A stretch of DNA of 37,558 nucleotides from a virus, in the IMG/VR virus record IMGVR_UViG_3300046804_001888, positions 1 to 37,558 of that record; one strand, given 5' to 3'. Position numbers and translations under genes: made by a program. Positions 28,427 to 34,474 of this stretch are shown piece by piece. Each line of letters begins with the position of its first letter. Position 1 is the first letter of the stretch. The notes under the pieces are model-generated. The model saw only the letters and a program-made list of their open reading frames with translations. It was not told the DNA's origin and searched no databases.

Positions 28427-29005
28427 TTAAATTGAAATATTGGGATCATCCACTAGCTGTTGACAATAGTCTGCTAATAGTGATTTCACTAACTTTGTAT
28501 ATATGTCAGTTTTTTGTATAAAATAACTGCTTGTTACAGTGTATTGGAAATCTGTTTTACTTTTTAGATGGATGTAATAATCTGCTGCATCTAATACAAG
28601 ATCCCAATCATATTCAGGATATGTCTTAAAGAACCATACAAACTTATCTGTAAGTTCTTTTACACTCTGTCTAGCAAGTTCCCCTGACGGGAGCCTTTTC
28701 TTTGGAAACAGCTCTCTATACTCATTCACCTTAGCTAAAAAATCTTCACCTAGCACTTCTTTAGTTACCTTTTTCTTTGTCTTAACCAAATGTGTTTCAA
28801 ATTCTTCCAGTATATGCAAAGCTGCTGCACTTAGCTGGTTATCTTCTGTAAGATATCCTTTAGCTCTACACACTAAAGCTTCTGCTTCTTGGTTAATGAT
28901 AGATGTAGGTTTTATTTTGTTTTTACAACAATCTAAAAAGTACAGCTGATTTGGGCTAATTGAATATTTGATCGATGTAGACCATAACTGATGGCTTTGA
29001 TTCAT
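28427..29005 (-). CDS. Hypothetical replication-linked protein (192 residues)
   Basis: Not recognised with certainty. The N-terminal part (ISPNQLYFLDCCKNKIKPTS, then INQEAEALVCRAKGYL) could hold a winged-helix-like segment. It continues with a Lys-rich helix and ends with VWFFKTYPEYDWDLVLDAAD and VTSSYFIQKTDIYTKLVKSL. It starts with leader AAAAAACAAGTATG inside the last 50 bases of the DnaA-like gene, and comes two genes before the DnaB-type helicase. Initiator, then this protein, then helicase is the order expected if it were a helicase loader, a hypothesis from position only. Confidence 0.65.
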   Translation of the reverse strand: MNQSHQLWSTSIKYSISPNQLYFLDCCKNKIKPTSIINQEAEALVCRAKGYLTEDNQLSAAALHILEEFETHLVKTKKKVTKEVLGEDFLAKVNEYRELFPKKRLPSGELARQSVKELTDKFVWFFKTYPEYDWDLVLDAADYYIHLKSKTDFQYTVTSSYFIQKTDIYTKLVKSLLADYCQQLVDDPNISI

Positions 29006-29438
29006 ACTTGTTTTTTAATTGTCTTTTAATAGTATTCAGTATAGCATTGTATAATAGTCTAAACTGATCAGAAGTACTTATCTGGTGATCAAAGATTTCC
29101 ATACAATGGATGATAGTAGTGTGGTGACGACCACCTAAGTATTCACCTATGCTAGATAGAGAAAACTGCATAGACCTTGCTATGTATGAGAATATAGCTC
29201 TTAGGTCTACAATTTCACGGTATCTGGTAGAACTACTAAGATACAACTTTTTTCCGAATTTATTTGGTAAAAAAGGATCAAAACAACGTTCCAATTCTTC
29301 TAATGTGATTGGAGAACTCAGAGGTGTCTGAGCAATATACTTGTTTACTACGGGATAATACCCCAATTTTTCATAAAAATCCTGCTTGAAACTTTCTATA
29401 AGCTGTGTTTCAAGTTCCTGTTTATTGATGTCTGTCAT
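28956..29438 (-). CDS. DnaA domain IV-like origin-binding protein
   Basis: The 160-residue protein carries RYREIVDLRAIFSYIARSMQ (residues 72-91) then FSLSSIGEYLGGRHHTTIIH (92-111). This follows DnaA domain IV, the DNA-binding helix-turn-helix with signature GGRDHTTVLHA, here GGRHHTTIIHC, an Asp-to-His change in the signature. No AAA+ ATPase motif is present and the length excludes one, so it is a domain IV plus a unique N-terminal half (residues 1-70). In bacteria domain IV binds DnaA boxes. In this phage it likely binds the origin or regulates transcription. It is the first gene of the leftward block, next to the divergent control region, a location that suits an initiator acting on adjacent DNA. 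Confidence 0.82.
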   Translation of the reverse strand: MTDINKQELETQLIESFKQDFYEKLGYYPVVNKYIAQTPLSSPITLEELERCFDPFLPNKFGKKLYLSSSTRYREIVDLRAIFSYIARSMQFSLSSIGEYLGGRHHTTIIHCMEIFDHQISTSDQFRLLYNAILNTIKRQLKNKYESKPSVMVYIDQIFN

Positions 29439-29533
29439 AACTTTTTAAAGTTTAAAAAACAAATTTAGATATTTTCTTCAAAATAATGTATATTATATTG
29501 TAGATATTCTATGAAGCATTGTTTACATATAAC
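29439..29533. promoter_or_regulatory. AT-rich divergent control region (left part)
   Basis: About 95 bases of very AT-rich DNA lie between the leftward DnaA-like gene and the structured RNA. Both directions of transcription must start here or nearby, so it very likely holds divergent promoters, and it could serve as a DNA unwinding element. I could not identify a convincing Bacteroidetes-type promoter pair (TTTG then TAxxTTTG) by eye, so no promoter is placed. Confidence 0.45.
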
Positions 29534-29647
29534 GGGCCAGAAAGTACTGGGTAGTCAGCTATCTGATTATTCTGACCAGCTTGCATCTCCCCGGTGTTAT
29601 CCATTTAACGTAAGGATAGGTCATGATTTTAGCCCAGTACCTGGCTC
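29534..29647 (+). ncRNA. Structured RNA candidate with three-way junction
   Basis: GGGCCAG (29534-29540) pairs with CTGGCTC (29641-29647), and GTACTGGG (29544-29551) pairs with CCCAGTAC (29633-29640): 15 bp in all with an AAA bulge on the 5' side. Inside, TAGTCAG/CTGATTA (29552-29558 with 29563-29569, CTAT loop) forms a second stem. TGACC/GGTCA (29573-29577 with 29619-29623) encloses TATCC/GGATA (29598-29602 with 29614-29618). The result is a junction with stems stacked end to end. G-U pairs (29535-29646, 29554-29567) fit the plus strand and would be mismatches on the minus. The element is visibly more GC-rich than its surroundings. It fits no RNA family I know. Confidence 0.65.
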
Positions 29648-29678
29648 TATTTTAAATAATATTAAAAGATAATTCAAT

Positions 29679-29987
29679 ATGTCACCTGTACGTACAAAGC
29701 TAGTTGATCAAGTTAAGATATGGCTTTTCCCAGCATTGGTAACGATATTAGGAACAATAATATATAGAGAAATACTAGAAATGAGAGCTGATGTTAAACA
29801 GCTATTAGCTCAGTCTAACATTGATAAAACAAAGATTGAAAAGCTTGAACAGCAGGTACAAATGATAAACCAAGCTTTATTCCTTAAAAAAGGTGTTGTA
29901 GCTTATGTATCACCAGATGAAATGAGAACATATGGTAAACATGAAGAGCTATATACATTAGAAAATAATATTGAAACTGAAAATTAA
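29679..29987 (+). CDS. Small membrane-anchored coiled-coil protein (holin- or spanin-like candidate)
   Basis: This 102-residue protein opens with a short basic stretch and one membrane segment (WLFPALVTILGTIIY, residues 14-28). A coiled-coil follows (EMRADVKQLLAQSNIDKTKI, then EKLEQQVQMINQALF) and an acidic tail. It is the first gene rightward of the structured RNA, at the start of the lysis and fibre block. The single N-terminal anchor with a coiled-coil resembles small phage lysis or head-to-membrane factors. I do not recognise a family; the lysis role is inferred from the neighbouring M15 peptidase and coiled-coil pair. Confidence 0.65.
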   Translation: MSPVRTKLVDQVKIWLFPALVTILGTIIYREILEMRADVKQLLAQSNIDKTKIEKLEQQVQMINQALFLKKGVVAYVSPDEMRTYGKHEELYTLENNIETEN

Positions 29988-29993
29988 TTAATT

Positions 29994-30410
29994 ATGCCTA
30001 ATCCTACAGATATTTTTGGAAACCTAAGATGGTTAAATAAATGGATTAAAAACCTACTTGGTAGAGTGTACACTCTTGAGCAAGGGGGAGGATCTTCTAG
30101 TGTAGACTCTGAAGGTAATCTTATTGTTGCAGATAGTTCATCTAACACTGTATCAGTTGCATACGGTGATAAACATGATATTCCTAACTTTTCAGGAATG
30201 CTTATAGTGAATGATCATTATGATGGATCCGTAGAACTATGGATATGTGGTGGAGGTTCTAATGCTGAATTGGTAAGTCGTACAAATTATGGTCCTGGAG
30301 CTGGAAGTGTAGATATTAATGGTGCAATAAATGGTTATCAATGGACTAATACTAGTAATGCTGAAGGACCATTTACATTTACAGTGATTAAAACAAGAAG
30401 TGGAGCATAA
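29994..30410 (+). CDS. Modular virion/fibre-like protein
   Basis: A 138-residue protein. The N-terminus (GNLRWLNKWIKNLLGRVYTL, then EQGGGSSS) looks like a short amphipathic trimerisation or docking helix followed by a Gly/Ser linker. The body is Ser/Gly/Asn-rich and beta-like (YDGSVELWICGGGSNAELV, TFTVIKTRSGA), as in tail-fibre or head-decoration domains. No signal peptide. The gene is spaced six bases from its predecessor and two bases from the next, fitting one rightward operon. Docking helix plus variable beta domain parallels the two other modular families further right, so a virion surface role is likely but unproven. Confidence 0.65.
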   Translation: MPNPTDIFGNLRWLNKWIKNLLGRVYTLEQGGGSSSVDSEGNLIVADSSSNTVSVAYGDKHDIPNFSGMLIVNDHYDGSVELWICGGGSNAELVSRTNYGPGAGSVDINGAINGYQWTNTSNAEGPFTFTVIKTRSGA

Positions 30411-30412
30411 TA

Positions 30413-30769
30413 ATGGAAAAGACATTAAACATATTAAAAATTATAGGAGTGTCTATTGTAGCACTCTTTGTTATTTTTATACTAATCTTTATATTCACTA
30501 TAAAGCCTAAGCTTATAGAACCTAGTATTTTTCAAGATCAGATTAACGATCTTAAAGAAGAGAATGTTCAGATAAAAGATGAACAAACTAAAATATCAGA
30601 AATAACTGATATGTATAATAGACGTATAGATAGTCTAAACTTACGTATAGATAGTGTAAAAGAGAAAACCGTTGTTATAAAGAAATACTACCATGAAAAG
30701 ATTCAGGAGGTTAATTCTTATAACGATACAGATGTAGATAACTTCTTAAAGAACAGGTATGAATATTAA
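30413..30769 (+). CDS. Inner-membrane coiled-coil protein, spanin-like (i-spanin candidate)
   Basis: A 118-residue protein with a strong N-terminal membrane segment (IIGVSIVALFVIFILIFIFT, residues 10-29) and then an extended coiled-coil (DQINDLKEENVQIKDEQTKI, RIDSLNLRIDSVKEKTVVIK). This topology, N-in with a periplasmic coiled-coil, is that of Rz-type inner-membrane spanins. Its 3' end overlaps the next gene by 11 bases, and that gene encodes an exported protein, resembling the overlapping i-spanin/o-spanin arrangement. The M15 endolysin follows two genes later. Spanin function is inferred from topology and order. Confidence 0.65.
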   Translation: MEKTLNILKIIGVSIVALFVIFILIFIFTIKPKLIEPSIFQDQINDLKEENVQIKDEQTKISEITDMYNRRIDSLNLRIDSVKEKTVVIKKYYHEKIQEVNSYNDTDVDNFLKNRYEY

Positions 30770-31647: not shown

Positions 31648-32067
31648 ATGCTTACATCTGCACAATGTCTTAAAAAATACGGTGATCCATACAGAACTGA
31701 TGGACACATGGTTATGTGGGATGTACCTAAAGAACTAGAAATAGGAGTTATTCCTAAAAAACTATACTGTAATAAAGATTTAGTAGCACCATTATCTAAA
31801 GCTTTTAAAGCACTAATAACAACAGGATATGTTAAAGAACTTAAAACTTGGGATGGTTGTTTCAATATTCGTAAGAAGCGTGGTGGTTCCACTATGTCTC
31901 TTCATAGCTGGGGTGTTGCTGTTGATGTTAATGCTTATGATAACTGCTTTGGATGCAGCCCTAAGTTCTCTAAAGGGTTTGTAAAATGTTTTACAGATGC
32001 GGGGTTCAACTGGGGCGGAAATTGGAAAAAACCCGATGGTATGCATTTTGAATTAGCTAAGATATGA
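31648..32067 (+). CDS. Peptidase M15 (D-Ala-D-Ala carboxypeptidase-like) endolysin
   Basis: The 139-residue protein has the M15 zinc motif: His86 and Asp93 in SLHSWGVAVDVN and His133 in DGMHFELAKI, with Glu135 probably catalytic. M15 phage enzymes cut peptide bonds in peptidoglycan cross-bridges during lysis. There is no signal peptide, so it needs a holin, and neighbouring small membrane genes are candidates. Several cysteines (CNKD, CFNIR, CFGCSP) are unusual for a short endolysin but not disqualifying. Its stop overlaps the start of the GIY-YIG gene (ATGA). Confidence is high for the fold, moderate for lysis rather than entry use. Confidence 0.85.
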   Translation: MLTSAQCLKKYGDPYRTDGHMVMWDVPKELEIGVIPKKLYCNKDLVAPLSKAFKALITTGYVKELKTWDGCFNIRKKRGGSTMSLHSWGVAVDVNAYDNCFGCSPKFSKGFVKCFTDAGFNWGGNWKKPDGMHFELAKI

Positions 32068-32675
32068 GTTGTATATACACCATAAAAAACATAGTAAATA
32101 ATAAAATTTACATTGGTAAAGCTAGTTGTTTTATTACTAGACAAAAAGAACATTTAAGAAAACTAAAAGCAGGAAAACATGTAAATAAACATCTTCAGTT
32201 TTCTTACAGTAAATATGGAAAAAATGCTTTTATGTTTGATATTTTAGAAGAATGTGATAACACAATTTTAGATGAAAGAGAAAAGTATTGGATTACTTTC
32301 TATGATTCTACAAAAGATTCTAAAGGTTATAATCTTATGTATGGTGGAGAAGGTGGAATAGGAACAAAAGAAACTAGAGAAAAACAAAGTAAAGCACATA
32401 ACAAACATAAAAGAAAAGTGTATGGATTTACTTTAGAAGGAGATTTTTACAAAGTTTGGGAATCTATAAAAGATTGTTCTAGAGACTTATTAGCAAATCC
32501 TTCTGATATAAGAAGAACTATTCAACAAAAACAATACAGTTGTAAAGGATTAGTGTTACAAGATATTGATATTTTTGATAATAGATTAACACCATCTGAG
32601 AAAATTAGTTTAAGATTAAGAAATTTAAATGGTACTTTTAAATCAGGTATGCACTTTCAATTAAAACAAATATAA
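32064..32675 (+). CDS. GIY-YIG homing endonuclease with NUMOD1-like tail
   Basis: A 203-residue protein with IYTIKN (4-9) and IYIGKA (15-20) as the GIY and YIG elements. Arg26 is in TRQKEH, the metal-binding glutamate in LDEREKYWI (around residues 71-73), and Asn90 in GYNLMYGG. The C-terminal half (KVYGFTLEGDFYKVWESIKD, CSRDLLANPSDIRRTIQQ) has the NUMOD1 DNA-binding form found in homing nucleases, similar to the stand-alone peptide at 16109. The ATG overlaps the endolysin stop (ATGA). A free-standing homing nuclease between endolysin and cytochrome genes suggests mobility in this locus; it may have carried neighbours with it. Confidence 0.85.
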   Translation: MSCIYTIKNIVNNKIYIGKASCFITRQKEHLRKLKAGKHVNKHLQFSYSKYGKNAFMFDILEECDNTILDEREKYWITFYDSTKDSKGYNLMYGGEGGIGTKETREKQSKAHNKHKRKVYGFTLEGDFYKVWESIKDCSRDLLANPSDIRRTIQQKQYSCKGLVLQDIDIFDNRLTPSEKISLRLRNLNGTFKSGMHFQLKQI

Positions 32676-32680
32676 AATAT

Positions 32681-34474
32681 ATGAAGAAGTATTTATTTCT
32701 TATTATTCTTTCAGTTGTTGCAATAGGTTCTATGGCTCTTGTAGAGATTACATATAACTACAATAGTTTGAACTTTAATCCTAGTGCAGCAGGAACTCCG
32801 TACACTTATGCTCTTTCTCCTACGTTTCCTAATATGCCAAGAGATATAGATGTTACTACAGACTCTTTGGCTCCAGGTACAGCAGCTGACACTCTTAGAA
32901 ATATGGATAATGAACCATATTCTATAGGACTTAATGGTCAAAGAAACTTCACCACTAATGCTGGTGCAACATTAGGTAGAGTGATATTCTATGATAGAGA
33001 CTTATCAGTAAACCACAGTATAGCTTGTGGAGATTGTCATAAACAAAAGTTTAGTTTTACAGACACTGCTAGACTTAGTTATGGATGGCAGGGACCCACT
33101 GGTCCAAGAACTGGTAGAAACAGTATGAATCTAAATCATATTAGATTTCATAAAGCAATCAGTATGTATTGGGATATGAGAGCTGCATCTATAGAAGATC
33201 AAGTTTGGAGACCAATGCATGATCCTGTAGAGATGGGTATGTCACTAAATCCTGTTACACTTCAAGTTCAACCTAGCACTGTAGCTAGGTGGGATACTAT
33301 TAAAAATAGAATGAATGCCAAATCTTTCTATCCTATATTATTCCAAAAAGCTTTTGGATCTACACTTATAGATAGTCAGAGAATTGTAATGGCTTTAGCT
33401 CAGTTTGTTAGAACAATGAACACATTTGATTCTAAATGGAGAAGAGCTATGAACACTAACACTGGTAATCCTTCTGTAGAAAATCTTCGTGGACTTAATC
33501 AGCAGGAGCTTCTTGGTAGAAATCTTTTTATGGATGTAAATCGTGGTAACTGTCAAGCTTGTCACACACGTAATATTTTTGTTAATCAGGGAGCCCAAAA
33601 TAATGGACTAGATGGTAGCATATTTGCCACTACAGATGGGGGTAGAGTTCCTTACAGAAATTCTGTATGGTTAGCTCAGAATGGAGCTTATACATTTGCA
33701 AACAGAGTGAATGCATTTAATGACTACAATGGTAAAGATTCAGGACTTGGAGGTTGGAAGTATTGGTTTAACAGAAGAGGTGGTAATATACCTGATCCTA
33801 ATAATGTAAATGACTTTGATGCTGAAAGAGGTACAACTAATAGTATAGGGTTTATAGGACGTATGGCTGTTCCTAGTCTTATCAATATAGCTGTTACAGC
33901 TCCTTACATGCATGACGGTAGATATAAAACACTTGATGAGGTGATAAATTTCTATTCAGATAGTGTAAAGAATAGTGATTATAACACTCTATCTGGATTC
34001 TTAAGAAAGATAGATCCTCAAGCTCCTATTAATGAAGGGGTTAAGGGTAAAGATAACGTCTCTCAAGCAGTTGTAGATACATCACCTGTACAAGTGATAC
34101 ATTATTCAACAAGAGAAAAGGCTGCTCTAAAAGCTTTCCTTCTCACTATGACAGATTCCACTATTCTTACAGACCCAAGATGGGGTAATCCTTTCACTGT
34201 AGTGGCAGGAGTTAAAAATACAAAAGACTTAAAACCTGTAATGAATATAGAAGCTTCTTCTCAAGATGACAAGCTTGTAATAGAGGTTGTTAATGGAAAA
34301 GATTTTAATGGATCTATCCTTATATATGATGATAAAGACAGACTTGTAAGAAGAAAGAGTGCAAGATTTGCATTGGGTAATAACTTCTATAAGTTTGATG
34401 ACTTAAAGAAATCTGGATACACTATTATAATCAGAGATGATAATAAAACTATAATGGATAGTAAACAAATATAA
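32681..34474 (+). CDS. Secreted diheme cytochrome c peroxidase (MauG/CcpA family)
   Basis: The 597-residue protein has an N-terminal signal-like segment (MKKYLFLIILSVVAIGSMAL). Two CxxCH heme-binding sites are CGDCH (116-120, in ACGDCHKQKFSFTD) and CQACH (291-295). It also has LGRVIFYDRDLSVNHSIACG and PYMHDGRYKTLDEVINFY, with Met410 a likely distal heme ligand. This is the BCCP/MauG pattern: periplasmic reduction of H2O2 to water using electrons from cytochrome c or a quinol pool, or MauG-like oxidations. Residues about 525-597 form a separate beta-rich domain resembling a T9SS sorting tail. It lies five bases after a GIY-YIG gene and three before a fibre-like gene, with the same AT-rich codon style, so it is phage-borne. 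Which reaction it performs is unknown. Confidence 0.88.
   Translation: MKKYLFLIILSVVAIGSMALVEITYNYNSLNFNPSAAGTPYTYALSPTFPNMPRDIDVTTDSLAPGTAADTLRNMDNEPYSIGLNGQRNFTTNAGATLGRVIFYDRDLSVNHSIACGDCHKQKFSFTDTARLSYGWQGPTGPRTGRNSMNLNHIRFHKAISMYWDMRAASIEDQVWRPMHDPVEMGMSLNPVTLQVQPSTVARWDTIKNRMNAKSFYPILFQKAFGSTLIDSQRIVMALAQFVRTMNTFDSKWRRAMNTNTGNPSVENLRGLNQQELLGRNLFMDVNRGNCQACHTRNIFVNQGAQNNGLDGSIFATTDGGRVPYRNSVWLAQNGAYTFANRVNAFNDYNGKDSGLGGWKYWFNRRGGNIPDPNNVNDFDAERGTTNSIGFIGRMAVPSLINIAVTAPYMHDGRYKTLDEVINFYSDSVKNSDYNTLSGFLRKIDPQAPINEGVKGKDNVSQAVVDTSPVQVIHYSTREKAALKAFLLTMTDSTILTDPRWGNPFTVVAGVKNTKDLKPVMNIEASSQDDKLVIEVVNGKDFNGSILIYDDKDRLVRRKSARFALGNNFYKFDDLKKSGYTIIIRDDNKTIMDSKQI

Follow-up and report, generated by a model that had tools for sequence, protein, structure and literature searches.

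The 37,558-base virus record analysed here (the window) is a fragment of a crAss-like phage and carries at positions 29534-29647 of the plus strand an element that almost certainly belongs to a genuine family of structured RNAs. This structured RNA has not been described before and is without a match in Rfam. To our knowledge, no structured RNA is known from crAss-like phages, and none was found in the open-access papers searched. Since its seven members are diverse, show compensatory changes and occupy a fixed place, the family lends itself to study by metatranscriptomics, probing and reporter assays. The features of the region are as follows.

28956-29438, minus strand: protein with a DnaA C-terminal (HTH) domain (PF08299, Bac_DnaA_C, 6.3e-12)
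29488-29503, plus strand: promoter-like motif GTATATTATATTGTAG, conserved at this junction
29511-29672, plus strand: 53-codon ORF across the element; conservation is judged not to lie in this frame
29534-29647, plus strand: structured RNA element, recognised by fold, shuffles, rank and homology to loci L082 and L089
29534-29551, plus strand: 5' strand of P1 (from the fold), consisting of GGGCCAG (29534-29540), an AAA bulge (29541-29543) and GTACTGGG (29544-29551)
29552-29569, plus strand: hairpin TAGTCAG-CTAT-CTGATTA, located where other members have the 5' loop and P3
29570-29577, plus strand: 5' strand of P2, TTCTGACC, with GGTCATGA at 29619-29626 as partner
29583-29597, plus strand: P4 hairpin GCATC...GGTGT (from the fold)
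29598-29618, plus strand: P5 hairpin TATCC...GGATA with TTTAAC in the loop (from the fold)
29633-29647, plus strand: 3' strand of P1 (from the fold and homologue comparison), CCCAGTAC (29633-29640) and then CTGGCTC (29641-29647)
29679-29987, plus strand: gene of a 102-aa protein, the first after the element, conserved in the alignments of relatives

Fold and stability

Folding of positions 29534-29647 reproduced the outer helix (7 bp, AAA bulge, 8 bp) that an earlier note on this DNA had proposed, together with its second two-part stem, in which 29570-29577 pair with 29619-29626 and which is topped by two hairpins in the minimum free energy (MFE) structure. The proposed tetraloop hairpin is also present, with 6 bp in the MFE structure instead of the claimed 7 bp, although 7 bp are possible. 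The MFE of the element is -40.6 kcal/mol for the plus strand compared to -33.7 kcal/mol for the minus strand, in line with the plus-strand preference claimed from the pairing. When the element was shuffled with dinucleotide content preserved, 1 of 1000 sequences was as stable (z = -3.5; z -3.2 in another run), and none of the 1972 sampled 114-nt windows of the contig, drawn from both strands, reached -40.6 kcal/mol. The element has a GC content of 47%, compared to 17% over the preceding 93 bases and 6% over the following 33, which agrees with the description of a GC-richer element in AT-rich surroundings.

The absence of a known RNA family was likewise confirmed: no Rfam match at or above the gathering score was obtained across the whole window, and a permissive scan of the element region yielded a chance match of 12 bits only. 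No Rfam 15 family was matched, neither at the gathering cut-offs in the window nor in permissive scans of the members and the element. ARAGORN found no tRNA or tmRNA genes in the window, L082, L089, L098, L124 or L128. An intrinsic terminator or attenuator was rejected, as 29430-29700 contains no G + C-rich hairpin followed by a T run, and a sequestered start codon was looked for at the element and not found. Neither of these two features being found, classical attenuation or a riboswitch is without anatomical support.

Homologues and common architecture

Approximately 340 related loci, many of them overlapping, were fetched with proteins of the region as queries and by pattern scans. The endolysin-type, 102-aa and helicase proteins served as queries, since the DnaA-like protein, searched alone or as an alignment, gave no loci. 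The 102-aa protein had no relative in the genome collection and none in GenBank phages. At the DNA level, an exact pattern taken from the window had no other match, and blastn of the window region or the L124 element against GenBank phages gave chance-level matches only. Patterns of P3 recovered four real members and those of P5 three, in addition to chance matches elsewhere.

Seven members were found in the same slot: the window, L082, L089, L098, L124, L128 (on a contig shared with L015) and L143. A clearly related RNA lies between the promoter-like motif and the 102-aa gene in L082, L089, L098, L124 and L128. L143 is a divergent member with 32 bits in the covariance model R1 (E 5e-8, a rough value as for all covariance-model E-values, from a search of 231 nt with filters off) and a z of -4.05. 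The members share a plan in which P1 (13-20 bp, usually with a bulge of 1-3 nt) is followed by a one-sided 5' loop of 7-14 nt, P2 and then a four-way junction with P3, P4 and P5. The module is about 110-140 nt long and occurs once per contig, and the operon gene starts 30-60 nt past it in every member. Most letters differ among members though the fold plan is common. P3 reads GGUUAASAAGUUCURAUUAACC in most members and is near-invariant in five of them, as would be seen for a recognition site. A kissing loop between P3 and P5 (AGUU with AACU), drawn by eye only, was rejected; the pairing is absent from L128 and only partial in L098.

Covariation was assessed in a core alignment of six sequences that excluded the window, aligned by sequence with MAFFT and with the structure named from the folds. 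Standard pairs make up 97.8% of its base-pair cells, and pairing drops to 30-49% when the partners are slid by one to three columns. Covariation among homologues, which the earlier note had proposed as a check, is evident: 13 of the 24 pairs show double changes, a number equalled in none of 500 shuffles, and every core helix contains compensatory changes. RNAalifold recovered the same core unaided from a related, sequence-only alignment. For the strands of P1a, P1b, P2, P4 and P5, pairing is about 1.0 within members, a value given by construction because the helices were chosen by folding, and 0.41-0.54 between members, which is the informative value. The z values of six members, the window copy among them, range from -3.5 to -7.2, with the plus strand lower in energy in all of them.

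The window copy as a divergent member

An alignment of the window with L082 spans 126 nt and scores 57, compared to 20.4 ± 3.5 for shuffled sequences (0/300 shuffles, z 10.4). The alignment with L089 is likewise significant (z 7.6, 0/300 shuffles), that with L124 is weak (z 2.3), and no alignment signal was obtained with L098 or L128. For a model built from the window, L082 and L089, the next best sequences were L124, L098 and L128, none of which had been used in training. Model R1, built without the window, gave the window copy only 10.5 bits, indicating that it is a divergent member. The canonical P2 and P3 (CCTG/CAGG; GGUUAA...UUAACC) are absent from this copy, in which P2 and P3 are rearranged. 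Judged from these comparisons, the window copy is a member by descent and not a canonical one.

The 8 bp of P1b are identical in L082, whereas other members have different letters and keep the pairing. In L082, TACTGGG and TCCTGGG flank the 5' loop, and it looks as if a deletion fused the two in the lineage of the window, giving P1 its partner CCCAGTAC and creating a new P2. The window P2 matches an alternative helix of L082, TTCTGATT/AATCAGGA. The window architecture has an energy of -43.1 kcal/mol in L082 compared to a minimum of -45.8 kcal/mol (2.7 kcal/mol above), while the same alternative fold costs 8-15 kcal/mol in L089, L098, L124 and L128. With these energies, L082 is a plausible bistable bridge in the evolution of the fold, and a conserved switch is unlikely. 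L082, as a relative able to take up both folds, seems to mark the route along which the RNA fold changed.

Genomic context

The element is placed between the promoter-like motif (29488-29503) and the 102-aa gene (starting at 29679). About 100 of the fetched loci contain the exact 15-mer GTATATTATATTGTA, each of them once; in those whose leaders were read it sits at the same junction, and the window has a single exact copy. Exact copies of TATATTATATTGTAG number 0-4 in whole contigs of 79-130 kb. In Flavobacterium, the promoter motif SM5 has a TAnnTTGY -7 box (PMC9723704). The sequence TATATTGT (29494-29501) fits this box. From this fit, the transcript is predicted to start near 29506, about 30 nt upstream of the element. 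The conserved motif directly upstream and the operon gene directly downstream are in agreement with the earlier assignment of the element to the place where rightward transcription begins.

The 102-aa protein has a hydrophobic N-terminal stretch and is coiled-coil-like. Its gene heads the rightward operon, in which small genes and an endolysin-type peptidase come next. This peptidase, 2 kb downstream, bears out the claimed location ahead of lysis genes, whereas the 'fibre genes' named with them found weak support. The leftward neighbours encode the DnaA C-terminal-domain protein and a DnaB-like helicase (DnaB_C); the DnaA-like neighbour of the earlier note is a real Bac_DnaA_C match (6e-12). 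Among the matches listed for the helicase, the top ones are largely from crAss-type gut phages at about 30% identity, and the contig is on this basis read as a divergent crAss-like phage.

Distribution and contents of the leader slot

Most relatives are without the element. In the helicase tree, the RNA-bearing contigs fall into two deeply separated groups, one with L082, L128, L089 and L143 (recognised later), the other with L098, L124 and the window. Several label changes are needed on this tree, with 5 as an upper estimate because L143 was scored as RNA-less. L082 is the closest relative of the window for the RNA and the 102-aa protein (57% identity), but its helicase is only 34% identical, while the helicases of L098 and L124 are 66-69% identical to that of the window. 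These identities indicate that the start of the operon and the replication genes differ in history.

Relatives without this RNA have almost nothing in the slot (L005, L017, L063), a 57-aa ORF (MKNWKTT...) in place of the RNA (L009, L011, L056), an ORF of about 80 aa (many relatives) or a different RNA-like leader (L121/L130; L155). The leader slot thus varies between RNA, protein or nothing, and the element can be regarded as a swappable structured RNA module.

The leader of L121 (2818-2972) and L130 (2822-2972) is an unrelated RNA-like sequence of about 150 nt in the same slot, also present in L123, with the closing pairs TATAGACG...GTCTATA; it is represented by only two distinct sequences. 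A third leader in L155 (about 2830-2945) has the closing stem TATGATAA/TTATCATA and several hairpins; it was rejected as a member of the family (R1 13 bits, at a different place). The short leader of L122 (2906-2965) and L004 keeps AACTAATTGTAAATCA, the same as part of the P5/P2' region of L082, and is perhaps, judging by this shared stretch, the remnant of a lost copy. L122/L004 adjoins L124 in the helicase tree with modest support. Just past the promoter box, L134, L144, L150, L195, L257 and others contain an inverted repeat, TGTAG(A)...(T)CTACA, which precedes the ORF of about 80 aa (KFYAQKDxxGxPxPGTMM) and may act either as a hairpin at the 5' end of the RNA or as an operator in the DNA. 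Across 42 distinct leader sequences, the stretch of 50 nt that starts with TGTAG is somewhat more stable than its shuffled versions (mean z -0.91, compared to +0.28 upstream). This effect is modest, and a few of the 42 are motif matches possibly located elsewhere. The operator reading arises because the predicted transcript start falls inside some of these hairpins.

Proposed function and alternatives

Transcription would start about 30 nt upstream of the element at the conserved TATATTATATTGTAG motif, and in this clade of crAss-like phages the transcript of the rightward, lysis-encoding operon would carry the element at its beginning. From its position, co-transcription with the operon is very probable. 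In the RNA, a long stem with a bulge would carry a junction of several hairpins, all upstream of the 102-aa gene, and this folded 5' leader may act in cis by determining how stable the operon mRNA is or how well it is translated, with the conserved P3/P5 part probably recognised by a phage or host protein. That it acts mainly in cis as a structured leader is, on its position, about an even chance. Of the three roles considered in the earlier note, that of operon leader is thus the best supported, and those of stand-alone ncRNA and origin transcript are less so.

Trans action is the second choice, given that the slot has the character of an accessory site. Here, the element would be a stand-alone or processed phage ncRNA, active in host takeover, in counter-defence or as an sRNA, and carried as cargo behind a conserved promoter. 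Its patchy presence and the small gene in the slot of many relatives also fit a cargo RNA, as do the different RNA-like leaders found there; the RNA has a compact, self-closed fold, and together with the 102-aa gene it differs in history from the replication genes. However, no terminator was found after the element (29430-29700), and the operon gene begins just 30-60 nt on in every member, so that we regard trans action as possible but rather unlikely. We are slightly more doubtful of its extension to an independent ncRNA class with a cloverleaf-like four-way junction, carried as swappable cargo and acting in trans, with the host or its defences as target. Quite improbable is an origin-associated transcript or DNA element, in which replication would begin at the divergent junction and the RNA would prime it or assist melting. 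The adjoining DnaA_C and DnaB_C genes, the single copy per contig and the change of sign of the GC skew would suit it, but coding direction flips at the same place as the skew. In addition, 28521-30610 contains no DnaA-box match with at most one mismatch, most relatives with the same replication genes lack the element, and the plus-strand bias of the pairing is unlike a DNA cruciform.

A two-state switch driven by a ligand or temperature could draw on the low cost of the alternative fold in L082. Given the cost of that fold in the other four homologues, and with neither a terminator nor a masked start attached, such a switch appears a little less probable again; in these energy calculations the two folds look like evolutionary steps more than a conserved switch. 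Chance stability or a small coding gene is barely credible. The frame across 29511-29672 is open in the window, but all three frames carry stops across the element in the five homologues examined, indicating conservation of the pairing but not of the 53-codon ORF. The possibility, raised in the earlier note, that homologues conserve this protein frame rather than the pairing is thereby contradicted. The ORF also gave no significant protein family match, and the compensatory changes in every helix argue against chance stability.

Comparison with known RNA systems

Structured 5' leaders, such as the 5' stem-loop mRNA stabilisers of the ompA type, are a known system. The element resembles them as a folded RNA between promoter and first operon gene, and the early leader of this phage's relatives tends to fold too. 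It differs from them in being much larger and multi-branched and in having near-invariant P3 letters. With tRNAs and tRNA-like cloverleafs it shares a closing stem and three hairpins at a four-way junction, whereas its long bulged P1, one-sided loop and spacer before the closing strand distinguish it from tRNA, so that the resemblance is one of shape only.

Bacterial Y RNAs, the partners of Ro60/TROVE proteins, likewise combine a long terminal stem with a hairpin module; unlike in Y RNAs, the letters of the terminal stem are not conserved in the element, and an Rfam match was not obtained. The early genes of crAss001 were reported to include a TROVE protein (PMC8375218). No TROVE gene was found in 14 records (several of them fragments), the window and five RNA-bearing contigs included, and a Y RNA role has no support.

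Comparative genomics has provided candidate structured RNAs, with 104 motifs in one set (PMC2864571) and a further set from the human microbiome (PMC8040213). These candidates rest on the same type of evidence and some adjoin phage genes; the main text of the latter report, its motif tables aside, does not mention crAss.

Other genes in the window

Immediately after the endolysin-type gene, a GIY-YIG homing endonuclease is encoded at 32064-32675 (plus strand). The rightward operon also contains a 597-aa ORF (32681-34474, plus strand) matching di-haem cytochrome c peroxidase (PF03150, 2.7e-38), which is unusual for a phage and has no PHROG match. On the minus strand, an ORF at 16336-17187 matches spore photoproduct lyase (PF20903, 3.8e-12).
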